Assembly (NCBI GenBank): GCA_016871615.1
Contig: VHCX01000035.1
Coordinates: 1 to 34,114 of the forward strand
Length of the DNA: 34,114 nucleotides
Reading direction: 5' to 3'
DNA from: Verrucomicrobiota bacterium
GTDB taxonomy: Bacteria; Verrucomicrobiota; Verrucomicrobiia; Limisphaerales; UBA9464
A program made the position numbers and the translations under genes. The number at the start of each line of letters is the position of its first letter. The first letter of the stretch is position 1. Shown here in pieces: positions 10,252 through 33,301 of the stretch. The notes beneath the pieces were generated by a model. The model ran no database searches and had not been told where the DNA came from. It was given only the letters and a program-made list of their open reading frames with translations.

Positions 10252-11304
10252 ATGGAGCAGACCGCACCCCAGAAAAAAGCCCTGAAGATGGTCTCGTGCC
10301 CGGCGTGCGGGGCCAAGCAGTTCATCCCGGGCGACCTGGCGCCACTGGACACGATGACCTGCACGAAGTGCCAGGCCACGGTGATGATGCCCATGATGCT
10401 CCGGCAGTATGAGCTGCGCTCGGAGATCGCCTCGGGCGGCATGGGCACCGTGTACCGCGCCTGGGACACCGCCCTGGGGCGCGAGGTGGCCGTGAAGCTC
10501 ATGAAGCGCGAACTGGCCGACGACCCCGCCGCCGTGACCGCCTTCGCCGTGGAGGCCCGGGCCTGCGCCCAGCTCAACCACACCAACATCATCCACATCT
10601 ACGCCTTCGACTACCACGAGGGCTACCGGTTCCTGGCCATGGAGGTCGCCGACGCCGGCAGTCTCGACAGCCGGATCGAGGCGGAGAAGACCCTGCCCGA
10701 GCTCGATGTGCTCGACATCGGCATCAAGGTCGCCGGGGCCCTGCAGGCGGCCCTGAAACGCGGGCTGCTGCACCTCGACATCAAGCCCGGGAACATCCTC
10801 TTCAGCTCGGACGGCGAGCCCAAGGTCGTCGACTTCGGGCTCGCCAAGAAGGCCGACGCCGACACCGACGCCTACGCACCGATCTTCGGCACGCCCTACT
10901 ACATCGCCCCGGAGCGGGTTCGCCAGGAGGGCGACACGTTCCTGTGCGACATCTACAGCCTCGCCGGCACCCTGTACCACGCGCTGACCGGCCACGTGCC
11001 CTTCGAGGCCCCGTCGGTGGAGGACGTCGTCGCGGCGCACCTGGCCATCCCGCTGCGGCCGGCCCGCGAGGTGAGTCCGGCCATCAGCCGGCCCACGAGC
11101 GACGCGCTGTCCAGGGCCATGGCCAAGAACCCGGGCGAGAGGTTCGCCAGCTACGACGAGTTCATCATGGCGCTGACGGCGGCCCGGAGCCAGGTGCTGG
11201 TCCGCCAGCTCACCGGGCGCAACGCCGAAACCGCCCCCGCGCCGGGCACCGCCACGCAGGCCGCCCCGCCCGCCTCGTCGGGCCGCAGCTGGTGGCGCCG
11301 CTGA
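10252..11304 (+). CDS. Ser/Thr protein kinase (Hanks type) with N-terminal zinc ribbon
   Basis: A 350-residue cytoplasmic kinase. Residues 16-40 hold two CxxC pairs (CPAC, CTKC) forming a small zinc ribbon before the kinase domain. That domain is complete: Gly-rich loop SGGMGTVY (61-68), Lys82 in VAVK, Glu101, catalytic loop HLDIKPGN (174-181; Leu replaces Arg of HRD), DFG at 194-196 and APE at 219-221. The missing HRD Arg places it among non-RD kinases, which are often not controlled by activation-loop phosphorylation. The short Ala/Pro-rich C-terminus has no membrane helix or sensor domain, unlike PknB-type kinases. It stands alone; the next gene is convergent across 145 bp in which I see nothing. 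Confidence 0.92.
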   Translation: MEQTAPQKKALKMVSCPACGAKQFIPGDLAPLDTMTCTKCQATVMMPMMLRQYELRSEIASGGMGTVYRAWDTALGREVAVKLMKRELADDPAAVTAFAVEARACAQLNHTNIIHIYAFDYHEGYRFLAMEVADAGSLDSRIEAEKTLPELDVLDIGIKVAGALQAALKRGLLHLDIKPGNILFSSDGEPKVVDFGLAKKADADTDAYAPIFGTPYYIAPERVRQEGDTFLCDIYSLAGTLYHALTGHVPFEAPSVEDVVAAHLAIPLRPAREVSPAISRPTSDALSRAMAKNPGERFASYDEFIMALTAARSQVLVRQLTGRNAETAPAPGTATQAAPPASSGRSWWRR

Positions 11305-19808: not shown

Positions 19809-21305
19809 TCAGAAGTACTTCTCGACGATCCAGCGGGGTTGCCAGGCGTCGGGCTTGCGCGGGTGGCCGGTGAGATCGCGCATCAGGGGCCGGGGATTCG
19901 GCACGGTCAGCGGCTGGGTGTCGCCCACCCTGGCCTGCCACTCGGCCATACGGGCCAGGAGGCCGGACACGATGGCGGCGTTGCCGGGATCGCCGGACAC
20001 GTCCACGCGCTCGTCGGGATCGTTCGCGAGGTCGAAGAGCTGGCGGTGGTTGACCGGCGGGTAGCAGATGAGCTTCCAGCGCTCGTCGCGCACGGCCCGC
20101 ATGAGCCCCTGGTAGGGCAGGAAGACCGAGTCCCGTACCCGGGCGCCCGGCGTGGTCCACAGCGGGCGCAGGTCCTGGCCGGCCAGGCCCTCGGGCACCG
20201 GCACCCCGGTCAAGCCGCACAAGGTCGGGAACAGGTCGAAGAGGTAGGTGAACGCCTCCGTGCTCCGCCCGGCCGGTAGGCCCGGCCCGGCGACGATCAG
20301 GGGGCAGCGCATGCTGTGCTCGTAGACGTTCTGCTTGCCCAGGAGTCCGTGGCTGCCCAAGGCCAGCCCGTGGTCGGCGGCGTAGACGATGATCGTGTTG
20401 GTGGCATGGGCCGAGCGCGCCAGGGCGTCGAGCACCCGCCCGATCTGGGCGTCCAGGTGCTCGATGAGTCCGTAGTATTCCCCGAGCTGGTCGCGGACCC
20501 ACTCCGGCGGCCGGGGCCACGGCAGGAGGTTCTCGTCGCGCAGGACCAGCTCGCCGTTGTCGAAGGGGTGCTGGGGCAGGTAGTTGCGCGGCAGGGGCGG
20601 GCGCTTCGCGGGGTCGGTCACCCGCCAGGCCTCCGGCGGATTGCGCGGATCGTGGGGAGCCGTGAAGGCCACATAGGCGAGGAAGGGCCGCTGCCCGGCG
20701 GGGCGACGGAGGAAGTCGATCGCTTCGTCGGCGAACTGTTCGCTCGAGAACTTCGGTGAGGGACGGCGCGGCGACCACGTCCCATCGGGCCCCAAGGTTT
20801 GGATGGCGATGCGGGTATGGTCGTCCATGCCGCCGAAGTGGACCGAGCGCCCGCGCTCGAAACTGCGCACGAAGGACGCCTCGCCGTTGTGCCATTTGCC
20901 GGTGGCGAAGGTCTCGTAGCCCTGCCGCCGCAGGTGCTCGGGCCAGGTCAACGTCCTGTCGAGATTGTGGGGAAGGCCGAACCAGGTCCGCCCGCTCATG
21001 AGCATCGCCCGGCTGGGGATGCACACCGCGCCGCTGTTGCCCCCGAAGCAGTAGTTGCCCCGGAAGCTGACCCCGCGGGCCGCCAGCCCGTCGATATGGG
21101 GCGTGCGGAGGTGGAGGTTGCCCCAGGCGCCGATCGTGTCGGCGCGCTGATCGTCGGCGAAGAGGAAGAGTACATTGGGCCGCCCGGCACCCGCGACCGC
21201 CGACCCGGCCCCATCCGCCGCCGCGACGACGACCACGACTGGCCTACGCAGGACCCACAGGGCCACGACGAGTCCGGCGAGCACACGGAGAGTCCGCGGA
21301 ATCAT
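19809..21305 (-). CDS. Secreted Cys-type (formylglycine-dependent) sulfatase
   Basis: A 498-residue arylsulfatase-family enzyme. An N-terminal hydrophobic segment is followed by the metal site LFLFADDQRADTIG (D51, D52). The modified Cys95 lies in CIPSR (95-99), the C-x-P-S-R signal converted to formylglycine by a sulfatase-maturing enzyme encoded elsewhere. TGKWHNGE, YVAFTAPHDPRNPPE and YAADHGLALGSHGLLGKQN are further signatures. Such sulfatases remove sulfate from algal or host glycans and are expanded in Verrucomicrobiota. ATG 21305 gives the signal peptide; the frame is open to 21833 with unlikely sequence. Confidence 0.93.
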   Translation of the reverse strand: MIPRTLRVLAGLVVALWVLRRPVVVVVAAADGAGSAVAGAGRPNVLFLFADDQRADTIGAWGNLHLRTPHIDGLAARGVSFRGNYCFGGNSGAVCIPSRAMLMSGRTWFGLPHNLDRTLTWPEHLRRQGYETFATGKWHNGEASFVRSFERGRSVHFGGMDDHTRIAIQTLGPDGTWSPRRPSPKFSSEQFADEAIDFLRRPAGQRPFLAYVAFTAPHDPRNPPEAWRVTDPAKRPPLPRNYLPQHPFDNGELVLRDENLLPWPRPPEWVRDQLGEYYGLIEHLDAQIGRVLDALARSAHATNTIIVYAADHGLALGSHGLLGKQNVYEHSMRCPLIVAGPGLPAGRSTEAFTYLFDLFPTLCGLTGVPVPEGLAGQDLRPLWTTPGARVRDSVFLPYQGLMRAVRDERWKLICYPPVNHRQLFDLANDPDERVDVSGDPGNAAIVSGLLARMAEWQARVGDTQPLTVPNPRPLMRDLTGHPRKPDAWQPRWIVEKYF

Positions 21306-21373: not shown

Positions 21374-23098
21374 TCAACCCGCCACCGCCGCGCTCCCGGG
21401 AGCCGGGGGCGACGGCTTCCGAAGCTTCCGCCCGTTGAGCATCGCGCCAACCCAGGTGTAGCGCACGCCCCACTCGTAGACGGCCAGGAGAAGGCCCGTG
21501 ACCGCGGCCGAGATCAGCAGGCACTTGAGCCATCCGGGCAGCGGCCAGTCGGCCATCGCGCCCTGGGCCCAGATGACCAGGGGCAGGTGGCCGAGGTAGA
21601 GCCAGTAGGCCGAGTCCGAGAGGTAGCGCACCCGGGGGCTCGCCGTTCGGACCCACTCCCGGAAGGCGCCGATACACCCGAAGGTCATGGCCCAGGCGTA
21701 GAGCCCTTGGAGCAGCACGGTGGCCACATGGAACAGGCCCGGCGGCAGCACGCGGTCGCGGAACCTGAGGTGGCCCGTGGCGGCCTCGACCCCGAGGGGG
21801 AGCAGCACCAGCAGGCTCACGGGAAGGAGCCACCGCCAGCCCCGGCCGAGCTCGCCCCGGGAATCGTCAGCCTCATGGTACAGCACGCCGAAGGCGAAGA
21901 AGAGCAGGTAATAGGCAAGGACATGCGGCATGGGCACAAGGCCCATCGAGGTGTCCGGACCGTAGGTGCCCTCCCAGGTCATGAAGGCCTGCGGCACCAG
22001 CACGAGCGGGACCCAGACCAGCCAACGGGCCGGGCCGAGCACCAGCCACCGTGGGGGCGCCCCCCATCCGAACCGGCGCGCCAGCCAAGCGTAGGCGGAG
22101 AACACCGGAAGCAGCCAGCAGAGAAACCACAGGAACCACACCACGATGAAGACCGGGGTGTCGATGAGCCCACGGAAGACCTCGGAGATCCGGCGGCCCG
22201 CCTCGCCTGTCCCCTGCCCGGCCGCCGACTCCTCCACGCCCAGGGCCGTCAGGCGTCGGACGGCCACGGCCCGCCCGGCCTCGACCTCGGCGCGGTCGAG
22301 CTTCACGCCGAACAGGCCGGCGATGAACTCAGTGGCGGCCCAGTCGGCCCGGGCGGGCTGCACGGTCGATTCGCCCGAGACGCTGCGGGCATGGACGTTC
22401 GCGCCCCGGGCGAGGAGCAGCTCCACCAGGCCCGTGCGTCCGAGAAAGACGGCGGCGTGCAGCGGGGTGTTGCCATCGCGGTTGGTCGCATGGACCGAGG
22501 CCCCGGCGTCGAGCAGCCGGCGGGCGAGGTCTTCGCGACCCTGCAGGGCCACCAGCGTCAGCGGGACGATGCCAGATTCAGGCTGCTGGACATCCAGGGG
22601 CGGCTTGCGGGCCAGCACCCGGTCGAGGGCGGCCACGTCGCCCGAGGCGAGAGCGCTCCAGACCGTGACGTCGGCGGTCGCGGTCCGGGCCGTTTCGGCG
22701 GCCTTCCGCAGGCGGAACCTGGCGGCCATGGCACTGCCCGAGGCCCAGCCCATGGCAGGCACCAGCGTGACGAGCCCGATCAGGCAGGGCAGGAAGATGC
22801 GCAGCAGGCGGTTCTTCCAGACGGCCGAGAGACCGCGTTTGCGCCAGAGCAGGGCCGTGAAGAACCCGCTGACCACGAAGAAGAGCGGCATCCGGAAGCC
22901 GTGGACGGCCGCCTGGAACAGGTAGAGCCCGGTGCTCCGGCTCGGGTCCTCGATCATCCAGCCGAAACCGGCGGCGTAGGCCAAGGCCGCGTGATACAAG
23001 ATGCCCAGCAGCATCGCCGCCGCTCGGAGCGCATCGAGGTCATGGCGACGCGGATCAGGCAGGGCGGGCGGATCGGCGGCGGCGGCGGCGGGGTTCAT
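21374..23098 (-). CDS. Acyltransferase-3 membrane protein with ankyrin repeats inserted between helices
   Basis: A 574-residue protein. Residues 18-115 are the start of an acyltransferase-3 (OafA/OPG-like) domain: HDLDALRAAAMLLGILYHAA with the family's conserved His36, then FRMPLFFVVSGFFTALLWRK and helix three. Residues about 144-245 are soluble ankyrin repeats (ASGDVAALDRVLARKPPLDV; GREDLARRLLDAGASVHATN; DGNTPLHAAVFLGRTGLVEL; LLARGANVHARS). From about 312 the membrane domain resumes with seven or so helices, ending in YWLYLGHLPLVIWAQG. The family transfers acyl groups to carbohydrates or lipids across the inner membrane. The frame is continuous and the junctions are clean. It lies 68 bp upstream of the sulfatase on the same strand. 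Confidence 0.87.
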   Translation of the reverse strand: MNPAAAAADPPALPDPRRHDLDALRAAAMLLGILYHAALAYAAGFGWMIEDPSRSTGLYLFQAAVHGFRMPLFFVVSGFFTALLWRKRGLSAVWKNRLLRIFLPCLIGLVTLVPAMGWASGSAMAARFRLRKAAETARTATADVTVWSALASGDVAALDRVLARKPPLDVQQPESGIVPLTLVALQGREDLARRLLDAGASVHATNRDGNTPLHAAVFLGRTGLVELLLARGANVHARSVSGESTVQPARADWAATEFIAGLFGVKLDRAEVEAGRAVAVRRLTALGVEESAAGQGTGEAGRRISEVFRGLIDTPVFIVVWFLWFLCWLLPVFSAYAWLARRFGWGAPPRWLVLGPARWLVWVPLVLVPQAFMTWEGTYGPDTSMGLVPMPHVLAYYLLFFAFGVLYHEADDSRGELGRGWRWLLPVSLLVLLPLGVEAATGHLRFRDRVLPPGLFHVATVLLQGLYAWAMTFGCIGAFREWVRTASPRVRYLSDSAYWLYLGHLPLVIWAQGAMADWPLPGWLKCLLISAAVTGLLLAVYEWGVRYTWVGAMLNGRKLRKPSPPAPGSAAVAG

Positions 23099-23244: not shown

Positions 23245-24429
23245 TCAGGACCGCTTCTTCTTGAGGCCGATGGAGCTGGAACGTTTGGCCAACTTGCGGC
23301 TGGTGAGCACCTTGTCAACGGTGCCGGTCTTCAGGTACTTCGAGCGCACCTGGTCGAGGATCGCGTCGCGGTGGTCGTAGAGCCGCTTGAGCTTGCGGGG
23401 CTTGACCCGAGCCGTGACGTAAGCCGTGAGCAGCGGCAGCGCGATGGTGCTGTCGGTGTAGCAGACCACCGAATCGGGGAGCTTGTCGGGGTCGACCTTG
23501 CCCCAGCTGACCGCCTCGGCCGGCGTGGCTCCGCTGAGGCCGCCGGTGTCGGGGCGCGCATCGGTGCACTGCAGGAAGTAGTCGTGGCCCTTCTCCTGGA
23601 TGCCCATGACCTCCTGGATCTGCGGCTCGGTCTGCAGCATGAAGTTCTTGGGACTGCCGCCGCCCAGGATGAACACGCTGCTGGTGTGGCCCGTGCTCTT
23701 GGCGTGGTAGACGATGCCCGCGGTCTGGTTCACGTCGCGGTTCACGTCGGGCAGCAGCTTCGATCCGCGCAGCGACATGGCCGCGACGTTCATGCCGATG
23801 GAGCTGTCGCCCGGGCTGCTGGTGAAGATGGGGATGCCGCACTCGTAGGCCGTGGAGAGGATCGAGCTGTCGCGGATGCCCAGCGTCTTCTGGCGGGCGT
23901 GGACGTACTTGCCCAGGAGGTGGTGGAACTCGTCGGTGCCCATGGGCCGCTGGAACTCCGGCCCCTGGATGACCTCACGCACGAAGGCGTCGGTGTCGAG
24001 GAGCACGTTGTAGTCGAAGAGCACGTCGTAGATGCGGATGACCCCCTCCTCATGCAATTCCACGTCGTCGAGGAAGGGCGTTCCGCTGTGCAGGTGCATG
24101 TCCAGACCGAAGTGGAGGTCGTGGTACAGGTTGGCCCCGGTGGAGATGATCCAGTCCACGTAGCCGCCCTTCATCAGCGGGATGAGGCAGCTCTTGCCCA
24201 GGCCGGCCGGGGTGAGCGCGCCGGTCAACGACATCCCGATGAAGCCGTCGTCGGGAAGCATCTTCCTCGCGAGCAACTGGGCCGCCTCGCGCAACCGGCC
24301 GCCATTGTAGGCCAGCATCGACTGATCGATGAGGTCGGCAGCGGAGATGCTCTTGCCGATGGCGAAGGGGTTGAGCCGGGGATAGGCGGCGAATTTCTTG
24401 GAGATCTTGTGGGCGGAGGCGTTGCTCAT
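23245..24429 (-). CDS. Deoxyhypusine-synthase-like protein (probable polyamine enzyme)
   Basis: A 394-residue member of the deoxyhypusine synthase family. The NAD- and spermidine-site segments are visible: [54 protein letters not shown] with Lys261, and EAVSWGK with Lys311, which aligns with the catalytic Lys329 of the human enzyme. Bacteria lack eIF5A, and characterised bacterial members transfer the aminobutyl group from spermidine to small amines, for example making homospermidine. The product here is therefore probably a polyamine. ATG 24429 (MSNASAHK) fits the family start; a longer frame to 24474 exists. The C-terminus is very basic (SIGLKKKRS). Confidence 0.88.
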
Positions 24430-24510
24430 AGGGCCGGGTCGAGAGTGCCCGGAAACCGGAAATGAAAAACGCAAAACTGGTGGCTGGGCTCGGGGATCCG
24501 CCGGGACGAT

Positions 24511-24532
24511 TCAGAGCCTGTCTGAAAACTCA
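24511..24532. repeat. Second, half-length copy of the TCA-flanked element
   Basis: The 23 bases 24511-24533 are identical to 1830-1852. This copy has TCA at 24511-24513, the 16-base left half at 24514-24529, and TCA again at 24530-24532. It lacks the right palindrome arm. As in the first copy, the right TCA is the stop codon of a minus-strand gene, here the amidase. Confidence 0.7.
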
Positions 24533-25852
24533 GGGTATTTCCGGGCGCCCCAAGGCGGCCACCCATTCGGCGAACGACCACAGCAGGCCGTCGGCGCCCG
24601 GCGCGCCCAGGCACTGGAACCCCAGGCCCGGTTCGCCCGCCTCGATCCAGGGCACGGTGACCACCGGCAGCCCACCGAGGCTGGCGGGGGCGGTGAGACG
24701 GATCATCCGCGGCCGGGTGCCGGCGTGGTCCGCGCCCGCCTCGAGGATCCGCAGGGCGCTGGCGGGGGCCACCAGCACGTCGAAGCGGGCGAAGAGGGAC
24801 CCGAGCCCGCGACGGAACGCCTCGCGCACGGCCAGGAGTTCCGCATACCGCGCGGACGACACGCCACGCCCCAGCTCCAGCCGCGGGAGGATAGCCGGGT
24901 CATAGGCCCCGGCATGGTCGGCGAGGTATCGGGCGTGGGTGGCGTGGGCCTCGTGGGCCTGGATGGGCACGAAGCAGTCCACCGCACGGTCCCAGCCCAC
25001 GCCCTCGACCTCATCGATCCCGGCGCCGCCGTCCCGCAGGGCCGCCACGAACCGCTCGAGGCCGGCCAGCACCTCGGGCTCGGCCGGGGCGAGCCAGTCG
25101 CCGCGCACCACGGCGATCCGGGGCACGCGCCCGAGCCGGGGGGACGCCACGGCCGGCCGGAAGCTCCGGGCCACCCAGGGCAGGTCGACCAGGCGGCGCT
25201 GCAACCAGCCCAGCGTGTCGAAGGCATGGGCCAGCGGGAAACTGCCCGAGGCGTCCTCGCTGCCCAGACTGGCCCGGTACGAGACCAACCCGCACAGGGC
25301 GGCCGGAGCGCGCAGCGATCCCCCGGTGTCGGTACCGAGGGCGATGGCGGCCGCGCCCATCAACACGCTGGCGGCGGCCCCGGAACTCGATCCCCCGGTC
25401 AATCGACCGGGCCGGTCCGGCTGGGTGACGTCGCCGAACCAGCGGTTCTCCCCGGTGATCCCGTAGGCGAACTCGTTGAGGTTGGTCTTGCCCACCAGCA
25501 CGGTGCCCTGCGCCCGCCAACCGGCCACATAGGGGGCATCGGCCATGGGCACGGGCCGGGTGCCGGCGTAGAAGGGCGAACCGCAGGTCGTGGGCCATCC
25601 GGCCACGTCGAAGAGATCCTTCACCGACACGGGCAGGCCCCAGAGCGGCCCCCCGGGCCCGGAAGCCTCCAGCGCCGCCGCACGGGCCCGGGCACCGGCC
25701 TCGTCGACCATCAGGAACGCCCGCGACCTCGCACCGCGACGCGCGGCCTCCAGCGCCGAACCGGTCAACTGGCCGGGCGTCAGTTCACCGGAGTGCAGGC
25801 GGGCGGAGATCTCCTGCAGGGAGCCTTGGAGGAGCAATCGTTCGGGATTCAT
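24530..25852 (-). CDS. Amidase-signature (AS) family amidohydrolase
   Basis: A 440-residue cytoplasmic-looking enzyme with a complete Ser-cisSer-Lys triad: Lys78 in LPVSVKDLFDVAG, Ser155 in TGGSSSGAAAS and the nucleophile Ser179 in GTDTGGSLRAPAALCG, with the family's 24-residue spacing between the serines. ENRWFGDVTQP and ALRILEAGADH fill the variable part. It resembles AtzF/GatA-like general amidases. GatA itself is unlikely, because no gatB or gatC is nearby and the C-terminal domain is short. The substrate is unknown. ATG 25852 (MNPERL) is preferred over the longer frame to 25906. Confidence 0.88.
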   Translation of the reverse strand: MNPERLLLQGSLQEISARLHSGELTPGQLTGSALEAARRGARSRAFLMVDEAGARARAAALEASGPGGPLWGLPVSVKDLFDVAGWPTTCGSPFYAGTRPVPMADAPYVAGWRAQGTVLVGKTNLNEFAYGITGENRWFGDVTQPDRPGRLTGGSSSGAAASVLMGAAAIALGTDTGGSLRAPAALCGLVSYRASLGSEDASGSFPLAHAFDTLGWLQRRLVDLPWVARSFRPAVASPRLGRVPRIAVVRGDWLAPAEPEVLAGLERFVAALRDGGAGIDEVEGVGWDRAVDCFVPIQAHEAHATHARYLADHAGAYDPAILPRLELGRGVSSARYAELLAVREAFRRGLGSLFARFDVLVAPASALRILEAGADHAGTRPRMIRLTAPASLGGLPVVTVPWIEAGEPGLGFQCLGAPGADGLLWSFAEWVAALGRPEIP

Positions 25853-25981
25853 CGTGCCGGACTCGAGCAAACCACACGGGGCCGCGAACTCAACCCAAGG
25901 CCTCACCGCGGGAACGGCGCAAAGCCCGCGACCCGAAGACTCCCTCGCCCGGTCGTGTGAGGACTCGGACAGCCACCCTCC

Positions 25982-30350: not shown

Positions 30351-30708
30351 AACCGCAGCGGAGCGGGATCAGTCCGCGGCGAGCGTAGGAACGTCGACAT
30401 CCTGGTCCCCCCAGCGCGACAGCGCTGGAGAGCCCCTCCTGCCCCAACGTTCCCCGCGAGCGCGGACTGATCCCGCGGAGCCCACCCAACGTTCCCCGCG
30501 AGCGCGGACTGAGCCAGCGGAGCCCCTTCCAAACCGCAGCGGAGCGGGATCAGTCCGCGGCGAGCGTAGGAACGTCGACATCCTGGTCCCCCCAGCGCGA
30601 CAGCGCTGGAGAGCCCCTCCTGTCCCAACGTTCCCCGCGAGCGCGGACTGAACCCGCGGAGCCCACCCAACGTTCCCCGCGAGCGCGGACTGAACCCGCG
30701 GAGCCCAC
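30351..30708. repeat. Nested direct and inverted repeat cluster (REP-like)
   Basis: Two near-identical ~177-bp units start at 30351 and 30532 (period 181). Each begins with a copy of a ~35-base motif containing GCGGGATCAGTCCGCG, then a short palindrome (CCAGCGC-GACA-GCGCTGG), then two 42-base subunits holding the same motif inverted (CGCGGACTGANCCCGC; subunits at 30445, 30487, 30626 and 30668). That makes six copies of one motif, two in one orientation and four in the other. It fills the 504-bp gap between divergent rarD and the DUF1549/DUF1553 gene. Its frames lack a start, and I see no coding content. Confidence 0.9.
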
Positions 30709-30751: not shown

Positions 30752-33301
30752 GTGATCCCCGGAGACCCGACCCGCGTCCTGGCAGGCATCCCCGCGATGG
30801 TGGGGATCCTCCGGCTGCTGCTCGCCGGACTCGCAGGTCCCTTCGCCCAAGCCGCCGTCCGGCCACCCGACAACGCCCGCGAGCACTGGGCCTTCCAGCC
30901 CCTCGGCAGGGTCGAGGTCCCGGAAGCCCGCACCCGAGCGCAACCGGATCACCCCATCGACCGGTTCCTGCAGGACCGGCTCGAGCGCGCGGGCATCGCC
31001 CCCGCACCCCCGGCCGACCCGCGCACCGTGATCCGGCGCCTCAGCCTCGACCTCACCGGCCTGCCGCCAGAGCCCGCCGAAGTCGACCGCTTCACCACCG
31101 AGGCAACCCGCGACCGCGCCGGCGCGACCGGACGCCTGATCGACCGCCTGCTCGCCTCGCCCAGGTACGGCGAGCGCTGGGGCCGGCACTGGCTCGACGT
31201 CGCGCGCTACTCCGACACCAAGGGCTACGTCTACGCCCGCGAGGAATCCCGCTTCGTCCACGCCAGCACCTACCGCGACTGGGTTGTGGGCGCCCTCAAC
31301 GCCGACCTTCCCTACGACCGGTTCCTGCGCCTCCAGCTCGCCGCCGACCAGCTCGTCCCGGCCGGCTCCCCCGACCTCGCGGCCATGGGGTTCCTCACCG
31401 GCGGACGGCGGTTCCTCGGCGTCACCCACGACATCATCGACGACCGCATCGACGTCATCACCCGGGGCACCCTCGGGCTCACCGTCGCCTGCGCCCGCTG
31501 CCACGACCATAAGTACGACCCCATCCCCACGGCCGACTACTACTCGCTCTACGGCGTGCTGCGGGGCAACGACGACCGCCTGGTCCCCCTGGACGAACCC
31601 GCCGACGCGGAGCTGGCGGCGCTGCGCAGGAAGTTCAGCGACCAGTTGGCCCTGCGACGTGGCGAGGCCACCACCCGGCTGCGTCAGCGCACCGGCGAGT
31701 ACCTGGCCGCCCAGCTCAACCCGAAGGACTACCCCGAAGAGGGCTTCGACCAGATCCTCTCCACCGCCGACATCATCCCCATGGCCGTGCGCCGGTGGCG
31801 CGACCACCTCAAGGTCGTGGCCACACCCGATCACCCCATCTTCGGACCCTGGCGGATCCTGGTCATGGACCTGGCTGCCCTGTCCGACACCGACTGGCCC
31901 GCCGCCGCCGCCCGCGCCCTCGACGCCCCCGGTCACCTCGCCCAAGGATGGAACCCACGGGTGGCGAAGGCCTTCTCGCGGGCGCCGTCCTCGCGCACCG
32001 AGGTCGCCCGGCGCTATGGCGAACTCTTCACCCGCGTGGAGAACGAGGCCCAGGCCCGCGCGGAGGCGCTGGCAAAGACCCCGAAGCCCACGGGTCCAGC
32101 GGCCCCGCCGACGCTCCCGCCCGACTCGGCGGACGAGGCGCTCGAGCGTTTCCTGCACGACCCGGCCTCGCCCACGACCGTGCCGGACACCGGCATGGTG
32201 AACACCGAGTACCTCTATCCCACCCAGGTCACCGAGGAACTCTGGCAGCTCCAGGGCGCGGTGGACCGCCGCCTCATCGCCCTGGGTGTGCGCGCGGCCC
32301 TCGTGCTGGCCGAGCGGCCCCCGGAACCCCTGCCCGTGGTCTTCCGCCGCGGCAGCCCCTCGCAGCCGGGGCCGGAGGTCCCACGCCGATTCCTGGAGGT
32401 GCTCTCCGGGCCCGGGCGCCGCCCCTTCGCCCATGGCAACGGTCGGCTTGACCTCGCGCACGCCATCGCCTCGCCCGACAACCCGCTCACCGCCCGCGTG
32501 ATGGTCAACCGCGTCTGGCACCACCACTTCGGCACGGGCCTCGTCAAGACGCCCAGCGACTGGGGCCTGCGCGCCGAGGCCCCGAGCCATCCGGAGCTGC
32601 TCGACTGGCTGGCCCGCCGCTTCATCGACTCGGGCTGGAGCCTCAAGGCGCTCCACCGGCTCATCGTCTCCAGCGACGCCTACCAGCGTGCCTCGGCCGG
32701 ACGGGCCCCGTGGTCCGACGAGGAGCGGGCCAGGATCCGCCAGCTCGATCCCGACAACCGCCGGCTCGCCTCCTTCCCGCTGCGACGGCTCGACTTCGAG
32801 CAGCTGCGCGACGCCCAGCTGGCCGTCACCGGCGAGCTTGAGGCCCGGATCGGCGGGCAGCCGGCGGGCCTGCTGGAGGCGTCGAATCGACGCCGTTCGG
32901 TCTATGGCCTGGTGGACCGTCAGTTCCTGCCCGGGGTCCTGCGCGCCTTCGACTTCGCCAATCCCGACCTGCACGTGGCGGTGCGCCACGAAACCACCGT
33001 GCCCCAGCAGGGGCTCTTCTTCCTCAACGGACCGTTCGCCGCCGACCGGGCCCGGGTGCTGGCGCGGACCGTGGCGCCGCTGTCGCCGGAGGACCGCATC
33101 CGGCACCTGCACCGACGGCTCTTCCAGCGCGAGGCCCGGACCGACGAGATCGCCGCCGGGCTGCGCTTCGTGAACGTCGCCGAGCGCGACCCCGACCGTC
33201 CGGTGCGGCCCGAGGTCGGACCGCCGCCCCCCCGGCTGGAGCCCTGGGAGCAGTACGCCCAGGTGCTGCTGCTCACCAACGAGTTCGCCTTCGCCGACTG
33301 A
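30752..33301 (+). CDS. DUF1549-DUF1553 secreted protein without PSCyt1 domain
   Basis: An 849-residue exported protein (hydrophobic MVGILRLLLAGLAGPFAQAA). DUF1549 occupies about 65-270, with LDLTGLPPEPAEVDRF, WLDVARYSDTKGYVYAREES, YDRFLRLQLAADQL and a CARCH motif (C247, C250, H251). DUF1553 occupies the C-terminal third: ASPDNPLTARVMVNRVWHHH, TPSDWGLRAEAPSHPELLDW, LDFEQLRDAQLAVTGEL and the closing WEQYAQVLLLTNEFAFAD. Unlike the gene at 1-1084 it lacks the N-terminal cytochrome domain. GTG 30752 has a GAGG 12 bases upstream; ATG 30797 is an alternative. It forms an operon with the DUF1501 gene, 11 bp downstream. Confidence 0.9.
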   Translation: MIPGDPTRVLAGIPAMVGILRLLLAGLAGPFAQAAVRPPDNAREHWAFQPLGRVEVPEARTRAQPDHPIDRFLQDRLERAGIAPAPPADPRTVIRRLSLDLTGLPPEPAEVDRFTTEATRDRAGATGRLIDRLLASPRYGERWGRHWLDVARYSDTKGYVYAREESRFVHASTYRDWVVGALNADLPYDRFLRLQLAADQLVPAGSPDLAAMGFLTGGRRFLGVTHDIIDDRIDVITRGTLGLTVACARCHDHKYDPIPTADYYSLYGVLRGNDDRLVPLDEPADAELAALRRKFSDQLALRRGEATTRLRQRTGEYLAAQLNPKDYPEEGFDQILSTADIIPMAVRRWRDHLKVVATPDHPIFGPWRILVMDLAALSDTDWPAAAARALDAPGHLAQGWNPRVAKAFSRAPSSRTEVARRYGELFTRVENEAQARAEALAKTPKPTGPAAPPTLPPDSADEALERFLHDPASPTTVPDTGMVNTEYLYPTQVTEELWQLQGAVDRRLIALGVRAALVLAERPPEPLPVVFRRGSPSQPGPEVPRRFLEVLSGPGRRPFAHGNGRLDLAHAIASPDNPLTARVMVNRVWHHHFGTGLVKTPSDWGLRAEAPSHPELLDWLARRFIDSGWSLKALHRLIVSSDAYQRASAGRAPWSDEERARIRQLDPDNRRLASFPLRRLDFEQLRDAQLAVTGELEARIGGQPAGLLEASNRRRSVYGLVDRQFLPGVLRAFDFANPDLHVAVRHETTVPQQGLFFLNGPFAADRARVLARTVAPLSPEDRIRHLHRRLFQREARTDEIAAGLRFVNVAERDPDRPVRPEVGPPPPRLEPWEQYAQVLLLTNEFAFAD

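Follow-up and report, generated by a model that had tools for sequence, protein, structure and literature searches.

The window analysed here, a stretch of 34,114 nucleotides that makes up one contig of a Verrucomicrobiota genome, encodes a membrane acyltransferase of the AT3 family in which a capped ankyrin module sits between the third and fourth membrane helices. The same insertion is present at the same site in 99 non-redundant rows of our alignment of relatives, from records labelled with six phyla, and the module is predicted to lie on the periplasmic side of the membrane. The likely task of the enzyme is to acylate molecules outside the cell membrane. We give roughly even chances to the reading that this acyltransferase works in the envelope, where its periplasmic ankyrin module would dock a partner or an acceptor and thereby recruit it to the active site or gate that site. 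The parts of the gene and its neighbours are as follows.

21374..23098, minus strand: AT3-ankyrin membrane acyltransferase gene (574-aa open reading frame, Pfam, relatives)
22745..23044, minus strand: N-terminal part of the AT3 domain, TM1-TM3, residues 19-118 (Pfam, AlphaFold helices)
22991..23035, minus strand: DxxRx10H motif (D22, R25, H36; invariant in alignment A1, same letters in E. coli OpgC)
22799..22810, minus strand: RxxR motif (R97, R100) at the cytoplasmic end of TM3 (alignment A1, comparison with E. coli OpgC)
22385..22663, minus strand: three canonical ankyrin repeats, residues 146-238 (Pfam, AlphaFold, fold match)
22229..22384, minus strand: degenerate fourth ankyrin repeat or conserved C-cap, residues 239-290 (fold match to about 295; the cap aligns in AT3 and non-AT3 proteins)
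22145..22204, minus strand: stretch with a helix back into TM4, residues 299-318 (AlphaFold helix 299-313)
21431..22138, minus strand: C-terminal part of the AT3 domain, TM4-TM10, residues 321-556 (Pfam, alignment, AlphaFold)
19809..21305, minus strand: sulfatase gene (PF00884, SGSH_C; Pfam; starts 68 nt past the AT3-ankyrin stop; orthologues in the genus)
23245..24474, minus strand: deoxyhypusine-synthase-like homospermidine biosynthesis gene, upstream (NCBIfam PRK00770, 577 bits, cut-off 450)
24530..25906, minus strand: amidase gene, next upstream (Pfam; kept in the genus, 80-81% identical in sister species)

The acyltransferase gene is a single unbroken reading frame from ATG to TGA. Pfam recognises Acyl_transf_3 (PF01757) in two stretches, the better of which (residues 19-114) scores 87.9 bits, above the curated cut-off of 31, so the protein belongs to this family by sequence. 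The ankyrin family PF00023 scores 47.1 bits against a cut-off of 21.1, with Ank_2 over residues 151-238 and repeats over about 151-246; the repeat-family score and the solenoid fold together identify an ankyrin domain. The best NCBIfam model for the protein is PRK03854 (MdoC/OpgC), and since its 132.8 bits fall far below the equivalog cut-off of 338, we call the protein OpgC-like and not OpgC. The source genome (183 contigs, 95.6% complete, 3.5% contamination) contains no second match to the whole AT3-ankyrin protein.

An AlphaFold2 model built from 69 sequences (pLDDT 93.5, pTM 0.89) places the ankyrin domain between the third and the fourth of ten membrane helices. In this model TM1 covers residues 19-41, TM2 56-88 and TM3 90-110, which continues as a helix over 112-140; the ankyrin helices (146-262) are followed by helices 269-285 and 299-313, then by TM4 (321-343) and the rest up to TM10 (522-545), TM5 being short. 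The first-pass annotation had placed ankyrin repeats between helix three and the remaining helices in one frame, and Pfam, the reading frame and the predicted helices 90-110 and 321-343 bear this out. Its linker of about 65 residues behind the repeats must be redrawn: residues ~142-295 of the model superpose on solved ankyrin proteins (Z ~18, rmsd ~2), and because the fold matches extend that far, most of the supposed linker is read as a degenerate fourth repeat and cap following the three canonical repeats, with a short helix behind. All 50 rows listed by a pdb search with the whole model are ankyrin proteins or ankyrin fusions, and since ankyrin matches fill the list, it is uninformative on the AT3 part. 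A model of an ankyrin-free paralogue (pLDDT 79.0, from 15 sequences) matched HGSNAT (Z 14.9 over 294 residues, rmsd 4.9) and GWT1 (Z 10.6), the next row having Z 5.7 (VIA). These two were separated by the VIA second look only, Foldseek giving no match to the paralogue model at E ≤ 0.001.

The ankyrin domain is predicted to be periplasmic from loop charges, AT3 motifs and the AlphaFold model. We compared the mean number of K+R with that of D+E per sequence in the loops of 110 rows. The loops of cytoplasmic type are strongly positive (TM2-3, 3.67 K+R vs. 0.09 D+E; TM4-5, 1.64 vs. 0.22; C-terminus, 4.05 vs. 0.20), and those of outer type are not (TM1-2, 0.58 vs. 1.32; TM5-6, 0.22 vs. 1.37), while TM6-7 and the short loops TM7-8 and TM9-10 show little or no charge bias. 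As TM2-3, TM4-5 and the C-terminus are thus placed inside, the insert should be outside. Structure prediction, which the first-pass annotation had named as the way to settle the side of the membrane, agrees with the charges on a periplasmic position, and together the two predictions give the ten-helix, N-in topology of AT3/TmAT proteins. Published AT3 topology also puts the TMH3-4 loop on the periplasmic side, and the same source mentions a different topology proposed for OatA (PMC9833829).

The AT3 motifs are intact. D22, R25, H36 and R97 are invariant, and R100 is conserved in at least 90% of sequences, in a 69-sequence alignment (A1) of the window protein with 68 of 76 references; L019, with its long N-terminal extension, and seven others with fewer than 104 residues each in the ankyrin stretch (L088, L089, L093, L095, L103, L104, L105) were left out. 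The DxxRx10H motif in TM1 and the RxxR motif in TM3, characteristic of AT3/TmAT enzymes, are therefore both present in A1 as in E. coli OpgC. In AT3 enzymes the R-x10-H and RxxR residues are described as essential and as lining the acyl-CoA site (PMC9833829; PMC7448272), and the Asp of DxxR as dispensable in OacB (PMC12423673). A histidine at the start of TM4 is found in 18/18 ankyrin-free rows (OpgC included) and in 84 of 109 rows with the ankyrin insertion (Ank+). It is replaced by V or L in 25 rows, which form the window's own clade; the chemistry may therefore differ there.

OpgC/MdoC is an AT3-only enzyme that succinylates osmoregulated periplasmic glucans. The window protein and E. coli OpgC have the same letters at D22, R25, H36, H66, R69, R97, R100, H504 and R546. 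They differ at the conserved positions 380, 495, 498, 525 and 555 and, above all in length, in the TM3-TM4 segment, which has 33 residues in OpgC vs. 194 here (columns 119-312). A Pfam scan of eight window genes revealed no family of the opgG/opgH type.

We then considered how widespread this architecture is. The protein is matched at E ≤ 0.001 in 47 of 50 genomes of the same family, in many of them through ankyrin or AT3 parts alone, and the AT3-ankyrin arrangement occurs in at least about 30 of the 50 (among the matches listed). Also among the matches listed, verrucomicrobial MAGs come closest of the named relatives, with about 71-73% identity. A scan of genome contigs gave 195 relatives, and the record titles of the best 80 of them name Verrucomicrobia, Planctomycetes, Gemmatimonadetes, Latescibacterota, Armatimonadetes, Thermoanaerobaculia (Acidobacteriota) and others. 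The phylum labels are taken from record titles, mostly of MAGs. Some of these titles are doubtful, Akkermansia muciniphila standing in those of several relatives, and part of the phylum spread may therefore stem from errors in binning or naming. Matches as strong as E ≤ 1e-30 occur in at least 2 of 288 genomes of the window's own phylum and at least 10 of 294 of the phylum of Thalassoglobus, the centre genome counted; these are lower bounds, since at most four candidates were scored per genome.

The site of the insertion is fixed. The TM3-TM4 segment (query 119-312) has 31-39 residues in the 18 ankyrin-free rows and at least 159 in Ank+ rows, with no row in between. The ankyrin stretch itself (146-250) is of nearly constant length: 96 of 110 rows have 104-107 residues there, 11 have fewer and 3 have more; the longest, with 139 residues, has about one extra repeat. 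A tree of the AT3 parts only separates the 99 Ank+ rows from the 18 ankyrin-free rows by one change. It was inferred from 117 of 128 rows (one too gappy and ten more than 95% identical were omitted) and 339 columns under LG+G4, by a quick search with SH-aLRT supports alone. The separating branch has an SH-aLRT of 70; 97 of the 99 Ank+ rows group at 95, and two divergent ones stand outside. This single change gives modest support to one gain of the insertion without loss among the sampled rows, a sample that favours Ank+ proteins as the relatives were collected by similarity to an Ank+ query. Mean pairwise identity is 0.38 for the ankyrin repeats and 0.28 for the cap, against 0.60 and 0.49 for the two AT3 parts. 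The lower conservation of repeats and cap would fit varied partners and, equally, a loosely constrained spacer.

Related modules also occur on other proteins. The cap has the consensus D-W-x-x-T-x-F-I-A ... G-R, and a profile of module plus cap (query 141-290) matched 16 non-AT3 ORFs on the collected loci, several of these loci having been collected through their ankyrin match. Fourteen of the 16 cover the profile from position ≤8 to ≥143 of 150. By Pfam, they include a CotH-kinase protein with two modules (L057), a PQQ-propeller protein with a module (L089), a protein with a propeller match over the cut-off and a MauG match below it (L111), one with ankyrin and a sub-threshold MauG match alone (L113), and ankyrin-only proteins (L091, L039, L107). 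A simple threshold detects a hydrophobic segment in seven of the 16 module ORFs (L057, L107, L039, L025 and one each at L111, L112 and L114) and none in the other nine, whose export it does not support. At seven loci (L025, L039, L057, L089, L091, L093, L107) a non-AT3 module ORF adjoins the AT3-ankyrin gene, on the same strand in six cases; since L091, L093 and L107 are close relatives, these amount to about five independent cases. Searching 13 genomes for the module gave 17 spanning matches (position ≤10 to ≥143), 14 of which are at AT3-ankyrin genes, and in the source genome the one module match at E ≤ 1e-12 is the AT3-ankyrin gene itself. A recent local duplication as the origin of neighbouring modules is unsupported at L057, where they share 32-36% identity; no other locus has both its modules in the alignment. 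The module tree requires three changes between AT3 and non-AT3 modules, but its resolution is poor, with only 9 of 43 inner branches reaching ≥95.

We also looked at the genes around the acyltransferase at 101 distinct loci, of which 81 have at least 1.5 kb of flank upstream and 75 downstream. The first-pass annotation had drawn a hint of glycan modification from the sulfatase directly downstream. This adjacency is real in the window, where the sulfatase starts 68 nt beyond the acyltransferase stop; at all eight sister loci of the genus, however, a kinase gene follows the acyltransferase, and at four of them (L031, L032, L036, L037) a sulfatase orthologue, 80-81% identical, comes after the kinase. 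At the other four sister loci the sequence stops within the kinase or no more than about 2.2 kb from the kinase domain. By direct similarity, a same-strand sulfatase lies ≤1 kb downstream at 4 of the 101 loci, the window's own included, and longest-ORF picking found a sulfatase in 3 of 50 downstream neighbours, a set outside which the window's own falls. The sulfatase neighbour is thus conserved within the genus and rare elsewhere. It is rejected as a general clue to the substrate, and the argument for glycan modification is weak. The fullest locus of the genus (L031) has the order amidase, homospermidine-type gene, AT3-ankyrin gene, kinase and sulfatase; in the window only the kinase is missing from this order, and its homospermidine-type gene is also kept in the genus (~94-96% identical in sister species). 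No kinase relic was found between the acyltransferase and the sulfatase, the gap being those 68 nt and the best match to the sister kinase in the source genome having 40% identity over 211 of 996 residues. Scanning around the AT3-ankyrin gene for promoter and terminator consensus gave no site of the first type and a single one of the second, below the numbers obtained with shuffled sequence.

Regulatory genes are the other recurrent neighbours. A same-strand Ser/Thr kinase lies within 1 kb at 21 of the 101 loci (upstream at 13, downstream at 8), and two further kinases are three genes away from the AT3-ankyrin gene. The neighbours submitted to Pfam were greedy longest-ORF picks made without a gene finder; Pkinase was recognised in 13 of the 59 upstream ones and in 6 of the 50 downstream ones. 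With 70 kinases in the 7.4 Mb of a planctomycete genome and 4-9 per genome in four members of the window's genus, this adjacency exceeds that expected of a random neighbour. Ten of the 13 upstream cases come from one planctomycete clade, however, and the eight downstream ones are all from the window's genus. The order ECF sigma factor, kinase, AT3-ankyrin gene was found at four planctomycete loci (PF07638 confirms one sigma factor). A same-strand pair of ECF sigma factor and FecR adjoins the acyltransferase at seven other loci, downstream at L013, L016, L020, L021 and L024 (window's family) and upstream at L052 and L068 (planctomycetes), with FecR confirmed by Pfam for L016 and L052. Altogether, 28 of the 101 loci have a kinase or an ECF-FecR pair and 73 have neither.

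The general idea of an envelope acyltransferase with an accessory extracytoplasmic domain is already known from the AT3-SGNH proteins OafA, OafB and OatA. In those proteins, the extra domain is a C-terminal SGNH enzyme behind an 11th membrane helix, whereas here a module without match to an enzyme family lies within the TMH3-4 loop of a ten-helix protein. The window protein has no SGNH family match at E ≤ 1, its last long helix ends at residue 545 of 574, and it falls outside the AT3-SGNH group. The ten-helix fold of the ankyrin-free paralogue model resembles that of HGSNAT and GWT1 in the TmAT superfamily, with 10-15% identity; neither of the two is known to have an ankyrin insertion. Residues 142-295 resemble solved ankyrin proteins (DARPins, ankyrins, FEM1B), with the difference that here the module lies inside a polytopic membrane enzyme, on the predicted periplasmic side, and carries its own conserved cap. 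We found no description of the AT3-ankyrin architecture in the titles and abstract starts of the open-licence papers listed, and it may nonetheless be published; the word "ankyrin" does not occur in the main texts of PMC9558356, PMC12423673, PMC7448272 and PMC9833829.

The position of the module gains weight from what has been published on the TMH3-4 loop. In the OafB model this loop is partly buried in the membrane, occludes the pore and shifts to admit acetyl-CoA (PMC9833829); its residues co-vary with the SGNH domain, and it has been proposed as gate and contact (PMC7448272, PMC9833829). One serine of the loop is reported to be essential in OafA, while for the AT3-only enzyme Oac the same paper reports no functional residue in it (PMC7448272). 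From this loop, an ankyrin module would be in a good position to capture a partner or acceptor outside the cytoplasm and to link that binding to the gate. Recruitment of a partner or gating of the enzyme, which the first-pass annotation had suggested, is therefore plausible, gating by analogy with the published modelling of OafB.

From the computed architecture, the conservation with a single gain, the intact motifs, the predicted side and the neighbourhoods, we infer catalysis, donor, acceptor, partner and gating in the following scheme. The protein would be an inner-membrane AT3/TmAT acyltransferase, nearest to OpgC-like enzymes, in which the short periplasmic TMH3-4 loop was replaced, apparently once, by a capped ankyrin module of roughly 150 residues. 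Acyl-CoA would enter from the cytoplasm and be held by the DxxR/RxxR site, and the acyl group would be donated at the periplasmic end, near His36, to an envelope acceptor. Carried by the helix that extends TM3 and led back by a helix towards TM4, the module would stand at the mouth of the pore. A periplasmic protein or protein-borne acceptor might bind in its groove, and this binding would recruit the acceptor, move the pore-blocking loop, or both.

The module might instead be a structural lid or spacer that stabilises the pore mouth or a homodimer, with no separate partner. The helical connections on both sides, modelled with high confidence, the near-fixed length of the module and its lower conservation relative to the AT3 domain are all consistent with this. 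It would, however, leave unexplained the related capped modules on unrelated proteins, some of them adjoining, and ankyrin repeats elsewhere mostly bind proteins; we consider a mere lid or spacer unlikely. Similarly improbable, in our judgement, is that the acyltransferase serves chiefly in signalling and is, in many lineages, part of a membrane regulation of Ser/Thr-kinase or ECF-sigma/FecR type, as its sensor or effector outside the cytoplasm. The kinases on its strand, numerous given the kinase totals of the genomes, the additional ECF-FecR pairs and the four loci with the sigma factor-kinase order point in this direction. Yet these loci cluster by lineage (5 of the 7 ECF-FecR pairs, besides the two groups of kinases), the window itself lacks the kinase, and nearly three-quarters of the loci show neither kinase nor pair, although the flank is too short at some of them.

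Ankyrin repeats are commonest in cytosolic proteins, which would suit a cytoplasmic segment binding cytosolic partners. This would require an inverted AT3 domain, and the loop charges, the RxxR motif on the TM2-3 side and the published topology (PMC9833829) all say outside; a cytoplasmic module is therefore highly unlikely. An assembly or frame artefact that fused an ankyrin gene into an acyltransferase gene might be suspected in one contig of a 183-contig genome with 3.5% contamination. The first-pass annotation had stated that a misassembly, or absence of the segment from all relatives, would overturn its reading. The search for the same insertion in other acyltransferases answered this: the in-frame fusion recurs in many genomes from different projects and at one change on the tree, so that the relatives refute an artefact, whose probability we regard as negligible. 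The reading with a periplasmic docking module, at its even chances, is the one that we retain.

A bolder version of the docking reading would make these proteins a multi-phylum family of allosteric envelope acyltransferases. The capped periplasmic module, akin to those of CotH-like, propeller and membrane-anchored proteins in the same bacteria, would dock a common periplasmic partner and open the AT3 pore through the TMH3-4 gate, and kinase or ECF-FecR regulation inside the cell would be coupled to acylation outside; we regard this extension as quite doubtful. PMC9558356 and PMC7448272 name as open questions how AT3-only enzymes function in the absence of an SGNH domain and whether a partner is required. 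With a natural family whose proposed gate loop carries a protein-binding module, both questions become testable. If the predicted side of the membrane is right, the family would also provide a family-wide case of ankyrin repeats acting outside the bacterial cytoplasmic membrane.

In the alignment of acyltransferase-3 (AT3) proteins, TM4 position 319 is a His in all 18 ankyrin-free rows, OpgC included, and this residue is kept in 84 of the 109 rows with an ankyrin insertion. Every row of the window's clade presents V or L at residue 319 in place of the TM4 His, a replacement that may reflect a changed acceptor or chemistry.

Three other genes of the window were recorded:
23245-24474, homospermidine-type deoxyhypusine-synthase homologue, directly upstream of the AT3-ankyrin gene
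10252-11304, plus strand, separate Ser/Thr kinase-like gene
30752-33301, PSCyt2/PSD1 (DUF1549/DUF1553) protein, a kind common among planctomycetes and verrucomicrobia

The first is about 94-96% conserved at the same upstream place within the genus, and the second lies about 10 kb from the acyltransferase gene. The window also contains a tandem duplication at 30351-30706 (unit of 181 bp, 97% matches), in which 42-bp tandem repeats are nested (30443-30525 and 30624-30708); a repeat peptide of similar look was found in a sister genome (L036:5670-5963).

In some planctomycetes, the AT3-ankyrin gene is preceded by genes encoding an ECF sigma factor and then a Ser/Thr kinase, the latter with several hydrophobic segments at its C-terminal end. 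This order was found in four loci:
L055:3406-5824
L057:2656-5026
L072 and L087, same layout as in L055 and L057

In other members of the window's family, the AT3-ankyrin gene is followed by a same-strand pair encoding an ECF sigma factor and FecR (L013, L016, L020, L021 and L024). In another locus, from the same genus, a CotH-kinase gene without ankyrin (L018:2598-4049) stands immediately 5' of the AT3-ankyrin gene, the bounds of the two ORFs overlapping by about 15 nt.

Finally, several non-AT3 proteins (CotH, PQQ propeller, single-TM) bear a capped ankyrin module akin to that of the enzyme. ORFs with a related module are:
L107:1474-2808
L039:1225-2529
L025:696-1475
L057:7321-9723
L089:7616-9544
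L111:618-3941

The capped ankyrin module is possibly a general docking module in these bacteria.
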